Positions 2,486 to 13,400 of a DNA stretch of 64,000 nucleotides are shown here, piece after piece; the first letter of the stretch is position 1, and the number at the start of each line of letters is the position of its first letter. The DNA is from an uncultured Pseudacidovorax sp. (GTDB lineage Bacteria > Pseudomonadota > Gammaproteobacteria > Burkholderiales > Burkholderiaceae_C): NCBI RefSeq assembly GCF_913773995.1, contig NZ_CAJYES010000249.1, forward strand, positions 1 to 64,000. The letters run 5' to 3'. The notes below the pieces were generated by a model. The model made no database searches, was not told the origin of the DNA, and saw only the letters and a list, made by a program, of their open reading frames with translations. Made by a program: the position numbers and the translations under genes.

Positions 2486-3979
2486 ATGAGACTGTCCACC
2501 CCTGCCAAGGCGCTCGGCATTGCCGCCGCCGGCGCGCTGCTGATTGCGGGCGCGCATGCGTCCAGCCACCGCGAGGCACCCTCCATCGCGGGCATGCCCA
2601 AGCTGGATGCCACCGATTTCTACATGTTCCGCAGCTACGAGGCCGGCCGCCAGGACTACCTGACGCTGATCGCCAACTACCAGCCCGACCAGAGCGCCTA
2701 CGGGGGGCCCAACTACTTCAGCATGGATCCGAACGCCCTGTACGAGATCCACCTGGACACCAACGGCGATGCGGTGGAGGACCTGACCTTTCAGTTCCGC
2801 TTCAAGAACACGCTGCGCGACATCCAGCTGCCCGTGGGCGGCAAACAGGTGTCGATCCCGCTGATCCAGGCCGGCGGCATCACGGGGCCCAACCAGGCCA
2901 CCAGCAACCTGCGCGAGACCTACACCCTGAGCGTGGTGCGCGGCGACCGGCGCAAGGGCACCGTGCAGCCGGTGACCGGCCCCGGCGGCGCCACCGAGTT
3001 CGACAAGCCGACCGACAACATCGGCGAGAAGACCTTCGGCGCCGGGGCGGGCTATGCCAACTACGCCAACCAGCACATCTACACCGTCAACATCCCCGGC
3101 TGCAGCGCGCCCGGCCGCGTGTTCGTGGGCCAGCGCAAGGACCCGTTCAGTGTGGCGCTGGGCCAGGTGTTCGACCTGGTCAACCTCAACCCGCTGGGCG
3201 CGCCCGATGCCAATGCCGACGCGCTCGCGGCCAAGAACGTGACGACGATGGCGGTGGAACTGCCCATCGCCTGCGTGACCACCGCCAGCCAGCCCATCGT
3301 CGGCGGCTGGACCACCGCCAGCGTGCGCCAGGGCCGGCTGATCGCTAGCCCGCCCAAGAGCGGCCACGGCACGACCGCCATCCAGGGCGGCGCCTGGGCG
3401 CAGGTCTCGCGCCTGGGCATGCCCCTGGTCAACGAGGTGGTGATCGGCCTGAAGGACAAGGACCGCTTCAACAGCTCCAAGCCCATGGACGACGCCCAGT
3501 TCGCCAACTACGTGACCAACCCCACGCTGCCGGCGCTGGTGCAGACGCTGTTCTCGGCGCCCGCCCCGACGAACTTCCCGCGCACCGACCTCGTCGCCGC
3601 CTTCCTCACCGGCGTGGACGGCCTGAACAAGCCGGCCAACGTGAAGGCCTCCGAGATGCTGCGGCTCAACACCAGCATCGCCGCGACGCCCAAGGCGCAG
3701 CAAAGCAACCTGGGCGTGCTGGGCGGCGACAACGCGGGCTTCCCCAACGGCCGCCGGCCCGGCGACGACGTGGTGGATGCGGAACTGCGCGTGGCCATGG
3801 GTGCGCTGTGCGTCGCCACCGGCGCCAACGATGCACTCAAGGTGGGCTGCAAGCCCGCCGACGCACCGGCGGGCAGCGCGGCCTTGACCGATGGCGCGGC
3901 GCAGTCGCCCGCGCAGTTCCCGGACGCCTTCCCCTACCTCAACACACCGCTGCCGGGCGCGACCCTGGCGCGCCAGTGA
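2486..3979 (+). CDS. DUF4331 family exported protein
   Basis: A 497-residue protein with a signal peptide (MRLSTPAKALG..., hydrophobic core, cleavage after GAHA) followed by the hallmark SSHREAP and DATDFYMFRSY of DUF4331. The biochemical role of the family is unknown to me. The start at 2486 is chosen because AGAGGT lies 7 bases upstream and the signal peptide begins there; an upstream ATG at 2411 would add 25 residues without signal character. It is the first gene of a compact set with a lipoprotein, a TPR protein and a HupE/UreJ membrane protein, so a periplasmic role linked to that membrane protein is likely (inference). Confidence 0.9.
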   Translation: MRLSTPAKALGIAAAGALLIAGAHASSHREAPSIAGMPKLDATDFYMFRSYEAGRQDYLTLIANYQPDQSAYGGPNYFSMDPNALYEIHLDTNGDAVEDLTFQFRFKNTLRDIQLPVGGKQVSIPLIQAGGITGPNQATSNLRETYTLSVVRGDRRKGTVQPVTGPGGATEFDKPTDNIGEKTFGAGAGYANYANQHIYTVNIPGCSAPGRVFVGQRKDPFSVALGQVFDLVNLNPLGAPDANADALAAKNVTTMAVELPIACVTTASQPIVGGWTTASVRQGRLIASPPKSGHGTTAIQGGAWAQVSRLGMPLVNEVVIGLKDKDRFNSSKPMDDAQFANYVTNPTLPALVQTLFSAPAPTNFPRTDLVAAFLTGVDGLNKPANVKASEMLRLNTSIAATPKAQQSNLGVLGGDNAGFPNGRRPGDDVVDAELRVAMGALCVATGANDALKVGCKPADAPAGSAALTDGAAQSPAQFPDAFPYLNTPLPGATLARQ

Positions 3980-3990
3980 AAGGGCGCGTC

Positions 3991-4305
3991 ATGACCAGCG
4001 ACAACCGGCTGTCCCTCCGGCTTGCGGGCGCCTTGCTGGCCGCCGCCGCCCTGGCAGGCTGCGGCGGTGGCGGCGGCAGCTCCTTCGCGTTCTTTCCGGC
4101 GACACCGCCCGGCAACGGCACGACGAGTCCGCCCCCCCCCACCGCGCCCTCACCCTCCACACCGCAGGCGAGCGCCTATGACCAGTTCGTGGCCTACGTG
4201 GTGGCACTCGTGAGCAGCGTGCAGGACACGGCCGAGCCGGCGGACGTGGCGGCCTTCGATCCGCCGCCGACCTCGGAAACCGCCGAACCGACCGCCACGC
4301 AATGA
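3991..4305 (+). CDS. Small predicted lipoprotein
   Basis: 104 residues. The N-terminus MTSDNRLSLRLAG leads into a hydrophobic segment and a lipobox LAGC, then Gly-rich and Pro/Thr/Ser-rich low-complexity sequence and an acidic Pro/Thr tail. GAAAGG lies just before the ATG, 11 bases after the DUF4331 stop. The stop overlaps the next ATG (ATGA). I do not recognise a family. Its position suggests an outer-membrane- or periplasm-anchored partner of the DUF4331/TPR/HupE set. The middle stretch looks like a flexible linker, and the short C-terminal part (residues about 55-75) could form a helix. Confidence 0.75.
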   Translation: MTSDNRLSLRLAGALLAAAALAGCGGGGGSSFAFFPATPPGNGTTSPPPPTAPSPSTPQASAYDQFVAYVVALVSSVQDTAEPADVAAFDPPPTSETAEPTATQ

Positions 4306-5486
4306 GCGTGCAGCCACTGCGCGGCGGGCGCATGCCGGCCCTGGGCCTGGCGCTTGCCGCCGCAGTGGCCTCGGCCGGCGCTGCGCCGCACCTGCCGACT
4401 TCCGACGCGCAGGTCGTCGAGACACTGCCGGGCGGGCCCGGCGCGGCCGAGGCTAAGCGCCGACTGCGTGCCAGCCTCGGCGTCAGCGCCGCGGATCCGA
4501 AAGCCGCCGTCGAGGCGGCCAGCGCCTATCTCGGCCTGGCCCGCACCCAGGGGGACGCCCGTTACGCGGGACAGGCCCTGGCCGCACTGCGGCATTGGGC
4601 GACTGTGCCGCCGGACCAGACGCCTCCCGAAGTGCTGGTCATGCGGGCGACCGTGCAGCAGTTCATCCACGACTTCGACGGTGCCGAGGCCTCGTTGAAG
4701 TCCGCGCTGGCCCGCCGGCCGGGTGACGCCCAGGCCTGGCTGACGCTGGCCACCATCCGCCGCGTGCGGGGCCGGCTGGCCGAATCCGACGCGGCCTGCC
4801 AGGCCACCGGCCGCACCGGCCCCGCCGTCTACGGCATCGCCTGCCTGGCCGAGAACGCCGCTCTGCGCGGCCGGCACGAGGAAGCGCGCGCCAGCCTGCG
4901 TGCCCTGCTGCAGGAGCCCGCGCTGCGCGGCGCGGCACAAGCCGGCCTGCGCCAATGGTTGTCGACCACGCTGGCGGAAGTCGAAGAGCTGGCGGGACGC
5001 CCGGCCGATGCCGACGCCGCGTACCGCGAAGCGCTGCCGCTGGGCGAGGACGGCTACCTTCGACTCGCGTACGCCGACTTTCTGCTGCAACAGGGCCGGG
5101 CGGCCGAAGTTGCCCCTCTGCTGGCTGCTGAACCGCGCAGCGACGCCGTGTTGCTGCGCCTGGCCATCGCCGAGACCCGCAACGGCCAGCGCAACGGCGC
5201 CGCCCGCGAGGAACTGGCACGCCGCTTCGATGCGGCGGCGCAGCGCCCCGAAGGCGCCGTCGGCCATGCGCGCGAGCAGGCGCTGTTCGCCCTGGACGTA
5301 CAGGGCGATGCCCGCCAGGCCGTGGCGCTCGCCCGCCAGAACGTTGCCCTGCAACGCGAACCGATCGACCTGCTCCTGCTCGCGCGGGCCGCGATGGCGG
5401 CCAAGGACGACACGGCCTTGGCCGAGCTGCGGCGTCTGCGCGACGAAACCGGCCTGAAGGACGCCCGCATCGATGCGCTGCGCTGA
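4302..5486 (+). CDS. Exported tetratricopeptide-repeat protein
   Basis: 394 residues. After a likely signal peptide (residues about 11-28, ending ASAGAA), the chain is a run of helix pairs with TPR spacing and residues, for example AEASLKSALARRPGDAQAW at about 128-147 and the A-G-A-Y pattern after AGRPADADAAYREAL. The ATG overlaps the stop of the preceding lipoprotein gene by 4 bases, and the gene overlaps the next one by 14 bases, so the set is very likely co-translated. TPR proteins act as scaffolds, and here the scaffold would be periplasmic. The substrate or partners cannot be read from the sequence. Confidence 0.85.
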   Translation: MSVQPLRGGRMPALGLALAAAVASAGAAPHLPTSDAQVVETLPGGPGAAEAKRRLRASLGVSAADPKAAVEAASAYLGLARTQGDARYAGQALAALRHWATVPPDQTPPEVLVMRATVQQFIHDFDGAEASLKSALARRPGDAQAWLTLATIRRVRGRLAESDAACQATGRTGPAVYGIACLAENAALRGRHEEARASLRALLQEPALRGAAQAGLRQWLSTTLAEVEELAGRPADADAAYREALPLGEDGYLRLAYADFLLQQGRAAEVAPLLAAEPRSDAVLLRLAIAETRNGQRNGAAREELARRFDAAAQRPEGAVGHAREQALFALDVQGDARQAVALARQNVALQREPIDLLLLARAAMAAKDDTALAELRRLRDETGLKDARIDALR

Positions 5487-6660
5487 ACGACCCCATCGCG
5501 GCCGTTGGCGCCTCGCGCTGGCCATGGTCATGCTGCCGATGCTGGCCCTGGTAATGGTGGCATGGCCGCGCGCCGCCCACGCGCACAAGGCCAGCGATGC
5601 CTATCTGCTGATCGACCGCGACGGGCCGACGCTGACCGTGCGCTGGGACATCGCGCTGCGCGACCTCGATGCCGCGCTCGACCTGGACGCGAACCGCGAC
5701 CAGCGCCTGCAATGGGGCGAAGTGCGCACCCGACTGCCCGAGATCACCGCCTATGCCGCCGCAAGATTGACGCTGCAGAACGGCCAGTGCGCCCTGCAGA
5801 CGCGCGAGCCGGAAGGCATCGACGACCGGGTGGACGGTGCCTATCTGGCACTGCGCTTCACCGCCACCTGCGCTGCCACCGATGCGCTGACGGTGGACTA
5901 CCGGCTGCTCAGCGATGTCGACCCCACCCATCGCGGACTGCTGCGTCTCGGCGCAGCAGGCGGCCAGGACTTGAGCGTGCGCTCGCTCGATCCGAATGGC
6001 GGCGCGGTCACGGTTCGCTGGCCAGGCAGTGCCGACGCGGGTGCCGGCGGCGGACACGGTTTCTTTGCCGATGGCCTGCACCACATCCTGATCGGCTACG
6101 ACCACCTGCTCTTTTTGCTGTGCCTGCTGCTGCCGGCCGTGATGCGCCGCAGTGCCGCGGGCTGGACGCCGGTGGGCCGCTGGCGCGACGCCGTCTGGCC
6201 CATCGTGAGCTGGGTCACGCTGTTCACCCTGGCGCACTCGCTCACGCTGGCACTGGCAGCGCTCAAGATCGTGAGCCTGTCGCCGCGCATCGTCGAACCG
6301 GCCATCGCGGCCACCATCCTGCTGGCGGCGCTGGACAACCTGCGGCCGCTGCTCGGCACACGTCGGCGCTTCTTCAGCTTCGGCTTCGGGCTGATCCACG
6401 GCTTCGGCTTCGCCGGTGCCCTGGCCGAGCTAGACCTGCCCACCCGGGCCTTCGCCAGCGCCCTGCTGCAGTTCAACCTGGGCGTGGAAGCGGGGCAACT
6501 GCTGGTGGTGGGCATCGCCATGCTGTTGCTGCTGGCCCTGCGGCGCTGGCGTGGCTATGTGCCCGTGGTGCTGCGCGGTGGATCGGTGCTGGCGGCGATG
6601 CTGGCCATGGTGTGGCTGGTGGAGCGGGTGTTCGACCTGTCGCTGCTGCCGATGGGGTGA
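5473..6660 (+). CDS. HupE/UreJ family membrane protein with periplasmic N-terminal domain
   Basis: 395 residues. An N-terminal signal segment (to about residue 36, ending AHAHKASDAY) and a periplasmic domain of about 160 residues precede a membrane part with roughly six or seven helices. That part contains HHILIGYDHLLFLL, GLIHGFGFAGAL and further His, the pattern of HupE/UreJ proteins, some of which are associated with nickel or cobalt transport. Metal specificity here is inference. The start lies 14 bases inside the upstream TPR gene. It is the last gene of the DUF4331 set, with no strong hairpin directly after it. Conserved His and Asp in helix 1 are compatible with metal binding. Confidence 0.88.
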   Translation: MRCAERPHRGRWRLALAMVMLPMLALVMVAWPRAAHAHKASDAYLLIDRDGPTLTVRWDIALRDLDAALDLDANRDQRLQWGEVRTRLPEITAYAAARLTLQNGQCALQTREPEGIDDRVDGAYLALRFTATCAATDALTVDYRLLSDVDPTHRGLLRLGAAGGQDLSVRSLDPNGGAVTVRWPGSADAGAGGGHGFFADGLHHILIGYDHLLFLLCLLLPAVMRRSAAGWTPVGRWRDAVWPIVSWVTLFTLAHSLTLALAALKIVSLSPRIVEPAIAATILLAALDNLRPLLGTRRRFFSFGFGLIHGFGFAGALAELDLPTRAFASALLQFNLGVEAGQLLVVGIAMLLLLALRRWRGYVPVVLRGGSVLAAMLAMVWLVERVFDLSLLPMG

Positions 6661-6764
6661 AGGCGGCGGCGGCCGCGCTCCGAGGCTCCGATGGCGAACC
6701 GCGGCCGGGAGCCGGCCCGCCTCTGCCTATAGTCACGGCCGCCGCCACTCTTCGCCTCGATGCC

Positions 6765-7172
6765 GTGTCCTTCATTGACGCCCTGCGCCGTTGGGCACGT
6801 CAGCTCAAGCGCGACGTACTCGCCCTCTGGTTCGCCCGCCGTCATCCACAGGCGCCCTGGCATGCCAAGGCCCTGGGCGCCTTCGTCGTGGCCTACGCGC
6901 TCAGCCCCATCGACCTGATCCCGGACTTCATTCCGGTGCTGGGCTTTCTGGACGACGTGATCCTGCTGCCCGGCCTGATCTGGCTCACGCTGCGCCTGCT
7001 GCCTCCGCAGGTGCTGGCCGATTCGCGCGACAAGGCACAGGCCTGGATGGACGCGCGCCGCGACCGGCCGCGCAGCCGGGTGGGGGCGGTGGTGATCGTG
7101 CTGCTGTGGGTGGGGATGGTCGCGGCGCTGGCGGTCTGGGCCTGGCCGTGGGCCCGAAAACGCTTCGGCTGA
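6765..7172 (+). CDS. DUF1232 (YkvA-like) small membrane protein
   Basis: 135 residues from a GTG start at 6765, chosen because no in-frame ATG is near the domain. A basic N-terminal helix is followed by the DUF1232 core, AYALSPIDLIPDFIPVLGFLDD at about 45-66, then an amphipathic segment and a C-terminal membrane helix (VIVLLWVGMVAALAVWAW). The function of DUF1232 proteins is unknown; the family is widespread and membrane-associated. It lies 104 bases after the HupE-like gene and may share its transcript. It is the last gene of normal base composition before the low-GC island. Confidence 0.8.
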   Translation: MSFIDALRRWARQLKRDVLALWFARRHPQAPWHAKALGAFVVAYALSPIDLIPDFIPVLGFLDDVILLPGLIWLTLRLLPPQVLADSRDKAQAWMDARRDRPRSRVGAVVIVLLWVGMVAALAVWAWPWARKRFG

Positions 7173-7191
7173 AAGGCGCCGTTAAGCTGAT

Positions 7192-7226
7192 CCGTGGGAT
7201 TAACGTCTGTCGGTTCTCTCCCACGG
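7192..7226. other. 8-base inverted repeat at the left edge of the island
   Basis: The perfect arms CCGTGGGA and TCCCACGG are separated by 19 bases, starting 20 bases after the DUF1232 stop. It may be a terminator for the upstream operon, but no T tract follows on either strand. Confidence 0.4.
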
Positions 7227-7391
7227 CTGAATCCCAATTTCGGAAGTCAAGGGGCATATGGTGCTCGACAACTGATCACCTTTCTACTTGTGCCCACGCA
7301 ATAAGGCCTGTCGAGCGCTGTAACAGACTCGTGAGAGCCGGCAGGACCTCTCCTTGCTCCACGGACCAACGCTGCCGGCCGAAAGAGGGTC

Positions 7392-7420
7392 TTGGACGGC
7401 AACTTGGGAATTTGTATATT
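7392..7420 (+). promoter_or_regulatory. Candidate sigma-70 promoter of the island genes
   Basis: TTGGAC, a 17-base spacer, then TATATT. The expected start site is near 7427, giving a leader of about 20 bases before the ATG at 7447. The surrounding AT-rich stretch is unusual for the window. No experimental support is available. Confidence 0.5.
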
Positions 7421-7446
7421 TGTACAGCCCCACTCAGATAAGCGCC

Positions 7447-9477
7447 ATGAGCGATTTCGCCACTGCCGAGCCGACGAGCACCCGGTTCATCCACGTTCAG
7501 GCGCAAGCCGACCACCTTGAATCTCTAGCGCGAGGGAAGCCAGTGACGGCGCTGGCTGAGCTCGTTTGGAACGCTTTGGATGCCGATGCGGACCGGATCC
7601 GCATTGGTATCACGGACAACGATCTGGGGAGCCCGGTTGCCGTCGAGATCGCCGACAACGGCAGCGGCATCAGCCTGAGCGACGCAGAGCGTGCGTTCGG
7701 CAATCTTGGTGGTTCATGGAAGCGTGAGCAGCGCCTCACGCAGCGGGCCCACAAGAAGATGCACGGGCGTGACGGCAAGGGCCGTTTCAAGGCGTTCGCC
7801 CTTGGCCATCGCGTCGAATGGGACACAGTGTTCCTCGGAGAAAATGACGAAGCTCAGCACTACGTCATAAAGGGAAGTAGCGACCGGCTGCAGGATTTCG
7901 AGATTGGCTCGCCATCCCCGCCGCCGAATGGCCGAGGCCGAGGCACGCGGGTTCGCATCACCGGTATCCAAGAGTCGCTTAGCGTGCTGTCGCGAGATGG
8001 TTCAGCGCCTCGCCAATTGGCGGAAGTATTTGCGCTGTACCTGCGCAACTACCCGGCCACCGACATCATCTATCGGGGTGAGCGCCTTGATCCCAAGGCG
8101 GTGCAGAAGGCTCACGAGACGTACGTTCTGCCGGCCTTCGTGACCGAGAACGGTGTGAGTGTCTCGGGTGAACTGGACATCGTCGAGTGGACCTTTTCGA
8201 AAAAAGAGCGCCGTATCTGCATGTGCGACTCGGATGGCTTCGTCCTCCACGAGATAGAGGCCGGCATCCGCCCGGGGAGCGAGTTCAACTTCACCGCATA
8301 CCTCCGCTCTGACTACGTTTCGAAGCTGCAGCAGCAGAACGTTCTCTCGTTGGAAGAGCTTGAGCCAGGCCTGCGCCGGCTGGTAGAGGATGCTCGAGCA
8401 TCACTGCGTTCCCACTTTCGTCGCCGAAAGGCCGAATCGGCTTCTGAACTCGTGAAGCAGTGGAAGCAGGAGGGTGTGTACCCGTTCGCTGGCGATGCGA
8501 CGGGGCCACTCGAAGCCGCTAGGCGTGAGGTCTTCGACATCTGCGCATTGAGCATTCATCAGTACCTCGACTCCTTCCGGGAGGGCCCGGTCAAGGACCG
8601 GCAGTTCACCCTGCGCATGCTCAAGACAGCACTGGATGAAAACCCCGAATCTCTGAAGCGCATTCTTTCGGAAGTCCTCGAACTGCCGAAAGAGCGACAG
8701 AACGAACTCGCGGACTTACTGCAGTACACGACCTTGTCATCCATCATCGAGGCCAGCAAGCTCGTTGCGGACCGACTTCATTTTCTTGCTGGCCTGCAAG
8801 AGTTGCTTTTCCGCGAAGAGACCAAGCGTGATCTTCGCGAGCGATCGCAACTGCATCGCATGCTCGACAACGAGACCTGGATATTCGGTGAGGAGTACCT
8901 CCTCACAAGTAGCGACGAGAATCTGAACACGGTCCTGCACAAGCATCTCTCAACACTGCGGCCTGAGTTGAGCAGGAAGAAAAGCAAGCAGAAGGCAGTG
9001 CTCCGCGACGACGGCACGCAAGCCGTTATTGATCTGATGCTTGCCAGGGAGATTCCGGCATACGCGCAGACACAGCGTGAGTTTCTGGTCGTTGAACTCA
9101 AGCGTCCATCTCAGAAGATCGACCTTGACGTCCAGCGACAGATCCTCGGCTACGCGATGGCAGTGGCAAGCGACGAGCGGTTCGACACTCAGAACACTCG
9201 CTGGACGTTCCTCGCCGTTTCGAACGAGATGACGCCAGACGCACGTCGAACGATTAGCCAGGATGGCAAGCCGTACGGATTCTTCCACCATGAGAAGAAC
9301 ATTAGGGTCGGCCTCGCAACCTGGGGTGAGGTGCTCAACGCATCTCGTGCTCGACTCGAGCTGTTCCGCACGAAGCTTGACTACACGGCGACAAAGGACC
9401 AAGGCGTAGCGCTCCTGCATCGGAAGTACGCACAGTACCTTCCGGAGAGCCTCGCTCCGCCGGAGAGCGACCGTTAA
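7447..9477 (+). CDS. GHKL (Hsp90-like) ATPase with C-terminal PD-(D/E)xK-like nuclease motif
   Basis: 676 residues. The N-terminal ATPase has the Bergerat-fold motifs: Asn42 in ELVWNALDADA (N box), DNGSGI at 70-75 (G1) and GRDGKGR at 107-113 (G2). The middle third is helical and charged. The C-terminal third has WIFG at 478-481, then Asp529 (VIDLML) and E550-L-K552 (VVELKRP), followed by a Gln-rich helix. This spacing fits a PD-(D/E)xK nuclease, and the WxFG-D-ExK order recalls Shedu-type (DUF4263) proteins. ATP-dependent conformational control of a DNA or RNA nuclease is inference. The start is the first ATG after the promoter-like site. A second gene with its own nuclease domain follows 36 bases later. 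Confidence 0.8.
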   Translation: MSDFATAEPTSTRFIHVQAQADHLESLARGKPVTALAELVWNALDADADRIRIGITDNDLGSPVAVEIADNGSGISLSDAERAFGNLGGSWKREQRLTQRAHKKMHGRDGKGRFKAFALGHRVEWDTVFLGENDEAQHYVIKGSSDRLQDFEIGSPSPPPNGRGRGTRVRITGIQESLSVLSRDGSAPRQLAEVFALYLRNYPATDIIYRGERLDPKAVQKAHETYVLPAFVTENGVSVSGELDIVEWTFSKKERRICMCDSDGFVLHEIEAGIRPGSEFNFTAYLRSDYVSKLQQQNVLSLEELEPGLRRLVEDARASLRSHFRRRKAESASELVKQWKQEGVYPFAGDATGPLEAARREVFDICALSIHQYLDSFREGPVKDRQFTLRMLKTALDENPESLKRILSEVLELPKERQNELADLLQYTTLSSIIEASKLVADRLHFLAGLQELLFREETKRDLRERSQLHRMLDNETWIFGEEYLLTSSDENLNTVLHKHLSTLRPELSRKKSKQKAVLRDDGTQAVIDLMLAREIPAYAQTQREFLVVELKRPSQKIDLDVQRQILGYAMAVASDERFDTQNTRWTFLAVSNEMTPDARRTISQDGKPYGFFHHEKNIRVGLATWGEVLNASRARLELFRTKLDYTATKDQGVALLHRKYAQYLPESLAPPESDR

Positions 9478-9513
9478 GCTACATGCTCTTCACGTTCAAG
9501 CAGGAGGGACGCG

Positions 9514-11376
9514 ATGGACGCGAATGCAATTGCGCTGCTGGACATCTTTGAAAAGAAGATGCGACTTGAGGTGCCGATGTTCCAGCGGCAGTACGTCTGG
9601 AAGCAAGAGCATCAGTGGGCTCCACTTTGGGAGGACATCTCTCGCAAGTTCGTGGAGTTCATCGAAGGTCGTACAGACGCGCCAGTTCACTTTCTCGGCG
9701 CGATGGTGCTCGATCAACGACAAACGCAGACAGGCCGCGTCGAGCGGCGCAGCGTAATTGACGGTCAGCAGCGTCTTACGACTCTTCAGATCTTCCTTGT
9801 AGCCTTTCGCGACTTCTGTCGAGGTGAAGGGCTGGTCGACTTCGCCGACGAGTGTGAGAAGTACACAGTAAACACTGGCCGAATGACCGAGCCCAAGGTG
9901 GAGAAGTACAAGGTCTGGCCAACGCTTAGCGACAGACAGCAGTTCATTGACGTCGTTGACGCAGGGTCACGAGATGCACTCGAGAAGCTTCACCCTCTAA
10001 CGAGACGCAAGTATTCGCGGAAGTTCGAACCCCGTCCTAGGATGGTGGAGGCCTACTTGTTTTTCTATGACAGTCTTGCTGAATTCTTCAAGGGAACCCC
10101 GACCGAGCCACCAGTAGCGGCCGAAAAGCCGCTGGCAGATCGTCTTGAGGAGTGCTTTGAAGCCTTGAAGACGGCGCTGAAGGTGGTGGCCATCGATCTT
10201 GACCGAGACGACGACGCTCAGGTCATATTCGAGACTCTCAACGCACGCGGAGAGCCGCTGCTACCTGCTGACCTCCTTCGGAACTTCATCTTCCTGCGAG
10301 CCGCTCGGCAGAACGAAGAGCAGGAGACTCTGTACAGGAAGTATTGGGCGGCGTTCGACGAGCCCTTCTGGCGCCAGGAGGTCGTACAGGGACGCCTAGT
10401 GCGGCCACGCAGTGACCTGTTCATTCAGCACTTTCTTGCCGGCAAGCAGGCCAGAGACATCCCGATCAAGCATTTGTTCGTCGAATACAAGTATTGGGTC
10501 GAGCGCACCGCTCCCTATAAGACGGTCGAGGCAGAACTTGCGGCGTTGGCGAAGCAAGGCAAGGACTACAGGCGTCTTGTCGTTCGTAGTGACGCCGATG
10601 CGCTCGGCCCGCTCGCTCATTTTTTGGAGACGTTCGATGTGAGTACCGTCTTCCCGCCGCTCCTCGCGATGCTTGATCTTCAGGCTAGCGACGACGAGAT
10701 GCGCGAGACGGCACGCGTGCTCGAGAGCTATCTCTTACGCCGGACGGTTTGCGTGTCGGACACCAAAGCGTACAACCGTGTTTTCATGAGCCTCACGCGT
10801 GCGATTCATCGAGATGGGGCAACTGCTGCGGTTGTCCGCTCTCACCTGGCAAGTCTGCAAGGCGCCACTGATGCATGGCCGAGCGACGAGAAGTTCTCGG
10901 ATGCCTGGATGACGGGGCATGCGTATTCGGCGCTCAACAACGCCAGGATCGTCTACATCCTCAGCAAGCTCAGCGATACCTATCGCACCTCCAAGACCGA
11001 ACAGGTCAAAGTAAGTGGGCAGCTGACCGTGGAGCACCTGATGCCGCAAGGCTGGATCACCCATTGGCGGCTGTCGGATGGAAGCAAGGGCCTCGAGAAC
11101 CCTTGGTCAGCTCCGGCAGATGACCCAACAGCGTTGGCAACGCGCGCTCGCAGCGCCATCGTCCAGACATTTGGCAACCTCACACTAATCACGGGCGGTC
11201 TAAACAGCTCGATCTCGAATGGCGATTGGGCAACCAAGCGGGCAGCCATCGAGGCGAACAGCTTGCTGCCGATCAACCTTCAACTCCGGAGCGCCGAAAC
11301 TTGGGACGAAGCAGCGATTGAGCGGCGCGGTCGCGACCTGCTTTCTCGGGCGCTTCACCTTTGGCCGCGAGGGTGA
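9514..11376 (+). CDS. DUF262/DUF1524 protein (GmrSD-like restriction factor)
   Basis: 620 residues. The N-terminal DUF262 domain carries FQRQYVW at 23-29 and the signature DGQQRLTT at 83-90, which in GmrS/BrxU/SspE-type proteins forms the nucleotide-binding site. The C-terminal DUF1524 HNH domain carries TVEHLMPQ with His508, then GNLTL (Asn555) and a downstream Asn/Lys-rich LNSSISNGDWATKR. Related proteins cut modified phage DNA. Whether this one recognises a modification is unknown. AGGAGG lies just before the ATG, giving a strong ribosome-binding site, and the gene is 36 bases behind the GHKL gene, so the two are probably one operon. Low GC and codon use match its partner. Confidence 0.88.
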   Translation: MDANAIALLDIFEKKMRLEVPMFQRQYVWKQEHQWAPLWEDISRKFVEFIEGRTDAPVHFLGAMVLDQRQTQTGRVERRSVIDGQQRLTTLQIFLVAFRDFCRGEGLVDFADECEKYTVNTGRMTEPKVEKYKVWPTLSDRQQFIDVVDAGSRDALEKLHPLTRRKYSRKFEPRPRMVEAYLFFYDSLAEFFKGTPTEPPVAAEKPLADRLEECFEALKTALKVVAIDLDRDDDAQVIFETLNARGEPLLPADLLRNFIFLRAARQNEEQETLYRKYWAAFDEPFWRQEVVQGRLVRPRSDLFIQHFLAGKQARDIPIKHLFVEYKYWVERTAPYKTVEAELAALAKQGKDYRRLVVRSDADALGPLAHFLETFDVSTVFPPLLAMLDLQASDDEMRETARVLESYLLRRTVCVSDTKAYNRVFMSLTRAIHRDGATAAVVRSHLASLQGATDAWPSDEKFSDAWMTGHAYSALNNARIVYILSKLSDTYRTSKTEQVKVSGQLTVEHLMPQGWITHWRLSDGSKGLENPWSAPADDPTALATRARSAIVQTFGNLTLITGGLNSSISNGDWATKRAAIEANSLLPINLQLRSAETWDEAAIERRGRDLLSRALHLWPRG

Positions 11377-11522
11377 GCCTCACCTGGTGCTAGAGCAACC
11401 GTTGGCGGCTGTCCGCTCATGGCCAAAATCCGTTGATTATTGCGGGGCCAGATCGCGATCTCTCGGCACTTCGCCATCAATCAGAATGACCGGGCAAGCC
11501 CGCAATTAAGCGGCAGAGCCCC

Positions 11523-13400
<1,878 letters not shown>

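Follow-up and report, generated by a model that had tools for sequence, protein, structure and literature searches.

Do two adjacent genes of unusual base composition, one encoding a GHKL ATPase with a nuclease end and the other a DUF262/DUF1524 enzyme, form one defence system or two systems that share a landing site? The question arises at a locus of the window (by which we mean the whole stretch of 64,000 nucleotides that was analysed), where a sequence-only reading had described a two-gene low-GC module at 7173-11522 and proposed that both genes, here called A and B, make up a single undescribed system. The coordinates and the shift in base composition are confirmed (58% vs 70% GC). The features discussed below are collected in Table 1.

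Table 1. Features of the locus, with positions counted from the first letter of the window.
Feature	Position	Strand	Description
Low-GC insert, acquired	~7176..11517, ends approximate		Flanked by the ykvA-like gene and the 3' end of glmS
LexA-like palindrome, TTGTATATTTGTACAG	7412..7427		19 bp before gene A; overlaps the -10 element of the single promoter-like match
Gene A	7447..9477	+	676 aa; predicted GHKL ATPase, middle domain, helical linker, C-terminal PD-(D/E)xK nuclease
Ribosome-binding site of gene B, AGGAGGG	9502..9508	+	Read from the sequence
Gene B	9514..11376	+	620 aa; predicted GmrSD-type (type IV) restriction enzyme, DUF262 + DUF1524
glmS	11523..13400	-	Open reading frame of the housekeeping flank; 3' end borders the insert

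The insert differs clearly from its surroundings. Its GC content (7176-11510) is 0.5825; 510 equally long windows taken from the rest of the 64 kb average 0.696 (standard deviation 0.015), and none falls below 0.636. The two genes are alike in overall GC (0.591 for gene A, 0.580 for gene B), and their GC3 (0.71 and 0.68) compares with 0.83-0.94 in eight neighbouring genes. The insert is bordered on one side by a gene that we take to be ykvA-like, whose frame ends with a stop at 7170-7172 in the list of open reading frames, and on the other by the stop codon (11523-11525, minus strand) of what is, judging by its protein sequence, presumably glmS. Homology to other genomes of the genus ends at 7152-7175 and restarts at 11511-11527.

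What occupies this position in other members of the genus? The glmS region was matched in all 15 same-genus genomes, including the window's own, and we compared one stretch beside glmS in each of the 14 others. The ykvA-like gene was kept close to glmS in three of them. In G1117 (L081), just 62 bp separate the two flank matches, so that the comparison with strains without the island, suggested in the earlier reading, has an empty site to refer to. In G1116 (L079), about 9.0 kb at the site include genes for HsdR-, HsdM-, HsdS-, and SIR2_2-type proteins (Pfam; 5987-12844). In G1124 (L082), about 9.2 kb include genes for DUF3375 and SbcC_Walker_B proteins (Pfam; 3810-6000), which we assume to be Wadjet-like; both appear incomplete. 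The remaining 11 stretches, among them that of G1121, where the contig flank spans only ~700 bases, lack a ykvA match next to glmS. None of the 14 stretches gave a blastn match to the insert, and gene A was found in one of the 15 genomes, the window's own (E 1e-10). Because the glmS side differs among these genomes and the insert has no match there, we conclude that the site varies and that the insert was acquired; the position looks like a variable defence site. The idea that the stretch is an insert, put forward from its letters, is thus supported by the comparison across the genus, and the acquisition may be recent. With three differing fillings and one empty site among 15 genomes, the 3' side of glmS would be a defence hotspot in this genus, and the window adds an example of two kinds of defence at one landing site.

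We considered how the insert could have arrived. A mobile element with recognisable ends was rejected: the repeats are short and imperfect, and inspection of the insert's reading frames by eye revealed neither an integrase nor a transposase. The position after glmS, which we take to be the Tn7 site, raised the possibility of a Tn7-like element. We do not claim one, because neither a transposase nor end repeats were seen.

Gene A starts with the ATG at 7447 and its frame is intact. The Pfam model HATPase_c_3 matches the protein above its cut-off (1.1e-13). We aligned the window's protein with 13 homologues (14 sequences, 35-41% identity) and, separately, with 28 proteins from IMG/VR contigs (29 sequences, 30-42%). 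The ATPase residues E38, N42, D45, D70, G72, G74, G107, G110, G112, and R113 are invariant in both alignments, and so are the nuclease residues E465, D529, E550, and K552, of which E465 is presumably the first glutamate of the E-D-ExK motif. The Bergerat-fold motifs that had been picked out by eye (N42; DNGSGI, with D70-x-G72-x-G74; GRDGKGR, with G107/G110/G112/R113) and the PD-(D/E)xK-like end (D529, E550-x-K552) are therefore not only present in the window's protein but conserved throughout the 14 and the 29 sequences. At E up to 1, the profile HSDR_N_2 matches 13 of the 14 members of the first alignment, with 1.7e-5 as the best value; the window's own protein is the exception. In the AlphaFold2 model (mean pLDDT 81; pTM 0.56, which leaves the placement of the domains uncertain) the C-terminal domain is alpha/beta. 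The best 50 Foldseek matches listed from the PDB are Hsp90/TRAP1 chains, with S5 itself not isolated, and the 50 listed from BFVD are mostly phage RIIA and topoisomerases. The GHKL part dominates the matches listed, so the nuclease half is not placed by fold. Profile searches with the gene A family against solved structures gave no nuclease-domain match, with none in 40 and none among the best 60 of 112.

This combination of domains has precedents. The paraMORC3 proteins join a GHKL-S5 ATPase to an E-D-ExK nuclease, and part of that family is stand-alone, without conserved neighbours, according to the available text of Iyer et al. (2008, PMC2292703). Gene A, in which a GHKL domain is followed by a C-terminal E-D-ExK nuclease, appears by its motifs and domain order to be an instance of this described architecture. 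It differs in its long helical linker, a feature absent from the description in the available text of PMC2292703. A second precedent is VcSduA of Vibrio cholerae, a GHKL-DUF4263 protein of Shedu type I-D that is anti-phage alone and whose protection needs the ATPase glutamate and the nuclease lysine (Adams et al., PMC12137116, available text). Gene A likewise encodes a single stand-alone protein with an N-terminal GHKL domain and a C-terminal PD-(D/E)xK nuclease; it has the motif-I glutamate and the nuclease lysine, and both proteins adjoin a GmrSD-like system.

The resemblance to VcSduA is one of architecture. Gene A has no Pfam SduA_C match, PF14082 (DUF4263) matched none of the 14 members of the first alignment (E up to 1) and nothing in G000 (E 0.001), and hhalign detected no similarity between the gene A family and six classical Shedu proteins. 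The PADLOC SduA model matches one of the 14 members (0.0014), which is not the window's protein. There is one bridge, a GHKL frame of 606 residues in G043. It aligns with the 29-sequence alignment over most of its length (99.5% probability), and its PF14082 match (1.8e-4) stays below the curated cut-off. Given the negative profile comparison with classical Shedu, the link to VcSduA rests on architecture and on this bridging protein, and a place for gene A within Shedu proper is not shown. We also considered the BbrUII/HgiDII restriction enzymes, whose model NF050001 is the best NCBIfam match of gene A (8.1e-13). The match covers residues 37-181 only, the likeness being via the GHKL domain, and its 47.8 bits fall far short of the model's cut-off of 550. 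As a side observation, classical Shedu genes adjoin a gene for an "ATP-binding protein" in Vibrio fluvialis and Rhizobium plasmids (L191, L193).

Relatives of gene A were found in 46 of 72,556 plasmid records, in 2 of 50,697 phage records, and at 42 IMG/VR loci; at E 1e-20, the class-level set (369 genomes) and the phylum-level set (398) each contain nine genomes with a match, a count that takes in the window's own genome both times. Named defence genes lie near the relative in 3 of the 12 annotated plasmid loci (Drt2 with a LlaMI-type restriction-modification system, a type ISP restriction-modification system, and an Abi protein). The other nine show none, apart from genes for toxin-antitoxin systems, helicases, methyltransferases, or antirestriction. 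The closest relative, in Schlegelella koreensis (L002, 6292-9487; 92% identity), has a frameshift near residue 430 and ends near residue 496. It adjoins a tyrosine-integrase-like gene that is split over two frames. Together with the gene content, this Schlegelella relative would point to a betaproteobacterial host for the window. A Cupriavidus plasmid (L030, 6905-8134) and a genome locus (L048, 14085-15185) have a shortened version that begins to align with gene A at about residue 300, at 54-58% identity. The two copies are 60% identical to each other; the GHKL domain is missing from them, and the D and ExK residues are kept. Both have a similar gene upstream, which we take to be YceH-like; the short form at L048 is cut by the contig end.

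The identity of gene B is more straightforward. Pfam places both GmrSD_N (PF03235, 6.5e-37) and GmrSD_C (PF07510, 1.7e-25) on it above their cut-offs, and the PADLOC model mREase_IV covers residues 1-619 (3.6e-96), with weaker PADLOC matches including the Orf5, HEC-06, and SspE models. No NCBIfam model matches it. In gene B and four homologues, the DUF262 residues Q24-R25, D83-R87 (DGQQR), and F239 and N243 (FxxxN) are invariant, as are H508, N555, and N564 of the DUF1524 His-Me domain. The DGQQR motif and the HNH residues H508 and N555 had been noticed before, and they hold in all five sequences. With both domains, all three DUF262 motifs (QR, DGQQR, FxxxN), and the His and Asn residues of the nuclease, the protein resembles GmrSD, BrxU, and SspE, and by domains and motifs it is a GmrSD-type (type IV) restriction enzyme. 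A single-sequence AlphaFold2 model of it (pLDDT 33) was discarded. Type I restriction-modification genes stand beside three of the four plasmid relatives (54-59% identity) that were read with their flanks, and a genome relative (L178) lies directly after HsdM- and HsdS-type proteins. At two other loci, where one neighbour was scanned each, this neighbour is a WCX-domain protein (L176) and a radical-SAM protein (L177). Viral contigs yielded five partial relatives, too few for an alignment, and none with the first query. Both genes of the insert are hence of kinds with published anti-phage members, as had been stated for the DUF262/DUF1524 kind.

Could the two genes simply be inactive remnants of a mobile element? 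The frameshifted and shortened relative of gene A in S. koreensis is what one would expect of such debris, and the lack of an integrase or transposase recognisable by eye in the insert's frames also fits. In the window, however, both frames are full length, the catalytic residues that are invariant in each family are intact, and a strong ribosome-binding site precedes gene B. We therefore regard decay of the locus as improbable.

A more interesting alternative is that genes A and B are one functional system, in which the GHKL clamp-nuclease would replace the DUF262-only partner of known two-gene systems (TgvA, GrwB) and load or activate the product of gene B on DNA. The two genes lie on the same strand, 36 bases apart and both full length, a spacing that a functional pair would show, and they are similar in GC. 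Published two-gene GmrSD-like systems require both proteins (PMC12137116, available text). The TgvAB and GrwAB systems contain one partner with DUF262 and DUF1524, as in gene B, and TgvAB sits in or beside type I restriction-modification operons, as do some relatives of gene B. In contrast, gene B has a GHKL-nuclease beside it: gene A gives no GmrSD_N match (E up to 1), so that a second gene with an N-terminal DUF262 is missing.

The neighbourhoods of the relatives also speak against a functional pair. None of 74 gene-A-type loci has a gene B match (E 0.001; 1e-4 for L002; 0.01 for viral loci). These loci comprise 14 plasmid loci (of the 46 matching records), 17 genome stretches (nine full-length relatives, one partial relative at a contig end, and seven distant GHKL proteins), the 42 IMG/VR loci, of which some are near-identical or truncated, and the S. 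koreensis locus; the flanks differ from locus to locus, and some contigs stop early. A frame with a DGQQR-type motif was absent from 65 of them, the nine others being plasmid loci covered by tblastn and annotation. Conversely, none of 14 gene B loci (4 plasmid loci out of 241 records and 10 non-self order-level matches at E 1e-50) has a gene A match. Searches of 399 order-level genomes, apparently the same sample for both genes and with the window's own included, gave strong gene A matches (E up to 1e-100) in 3 genomes and strong gene B matches (E up to 1e-50) in 11; the window's genome is the only one with both. A distant gene-A-like protein (E 1.7e-24) lies ~68 kb from a gene B relative in G255, and of the 10 other gene-A-positive genomes, three have a gene B match anywhere (E 1e-5), none of them nearby. 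None of the complete gene A relatives found exceeds 43% identity, and the closer ones (L002 at 92%; L030 and L048 at 54-58%) are incomplete, so pairing in the closest clade of gene A could not be judged. The two genes occur apart in the loci examined, an outcome that the earlier reading had itself named as a refutation. A conserved pair is therefore refuted in this sample, and the single undescribed system first proposed is not supported. We consider joint function of this kind highly improbable.

Nor does the combination of A and B appear to be new as a paired system. In the WASA lineage of V. cholerae, the GmrSD-like grwAB adjoins VcSduA on VSP-II; the two were dissected and act independently, and they are rarely together outside V. 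cholerae (PMC12137116, available text). These neighbours mean that the coincidence of a GHKL-Shedu protein with a GmrSD-like system has already been described. Among open-access titles and abstract openings, no GHKL + DUF262 system, or LexA control of one, was reported.

In our opinion, the locus is thus likely to be a two-gene defence cassette acquired downstream of glmS, encoding two self-sufficient nucleases of known kinds that are probably co-transcribed and directed against differing phages. The domains, the intact catalytic residues, the insertion, and the absence of conserved pairing in the loci examined all agree with this. How could such a cassette work? By analogy with GHKL relatives, the GHKL domains of a gene A dimer would bind ATP and close as a clamp on DNA, and some feature of the invading DNA would license the C-terminal PD-(D/E)xK domain to cut, so that the protein would act as paraMORC3 and VcSduA do. 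The product of gene B would act as GmrSD and BrxU, with DUF262 hydrolysing NTP and sensing modified bases and the His-Me (HNH-type) domain cutting the modified DNA. The two would cover different phages, and their expression, probably from one transcript, could possibly be raised by DNA damage.

The last point depends on the sequence before gene A. The early suggestion that the genes have their own promoter is not supported by a consensus scan, which found 1 site against 1.0 expected in shuffles. The strong ribosome-binding site suggested at the same time stands for gene B and falls for gene A, before which none was seen by eye. LexA binds the consensus CTGT-N8-ACAG. The palindrome TTGTATATTTGTACAG has one core mismatch to it and lies within bases common to the window and the S. 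koreensis locus, which has the perfect palindrome CTGTATATTTGTACAG. The window contains 14 sequences with up to one mismatch to CTGTN8ACAG, where chance predicts 17.8, so the site has no significance by itself. Upstream of the host's lexA are two CTG-N10-CAG sequences, and the genome contains no copy of the pattern CTGTATATNNNNACAG.

These palindromes raise a possible addition to the explanation that we prefer, namely, that the two nucleases are independent and that a single LexA-type promoter raises both after DNA damage, in which case restriction would rise when a phage infects or a prophage is induced. Of 59 distinct upstream regions in the gene A family, five carry a strong site (the window, L002, L047, L113, and L118). 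When the regions upstream of 588 ORFs were scanned mechanically, four of the five strong sites found precede genes of this family (Fisher p 4.8e-5, with the other ORFs approximated as 529, i.e., 588 minus 59). However, the threshold for a strong site was chosen with the window's site already in view. When the two discovery loci are left out, the enrichment is 3 of 57 against 1 of ~529 (p = 0.003), and dropping one more gives 0.026. In a looser shuffle test, 6 of 60 upstream regions reached a p of at most 0.05, with 3 expected, and 54 of the 59 family upstreams have no strong site; the core mismatch of the window's copy and the absence of CTGTATATNNNNACAG from the genome also count against it. 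The palindromes weakly suggest DNA-damage control of gene A. We treat LexA-like regulation as a lead rather than a result, and shared induction of both genes as a tentative addition, possible and on balance doubtful. A stronger version, a damage-inducible operon in which the GHKL clamp-nuclease and the type IV enzyme act jointly on one and the same invading DNA and the clamp delivers the second enzyme, is the least probable of the readings weighed here. If LexA-like control holds, it would link DNA damage to a GHKL-nuclease defence. Finally, at ~244-385 of the window the list of open reading frames reveals a simple repeat, which reads as a long Ser-Ala run in one frame and as Met-Pro and Met-Arg runs on the other strand.
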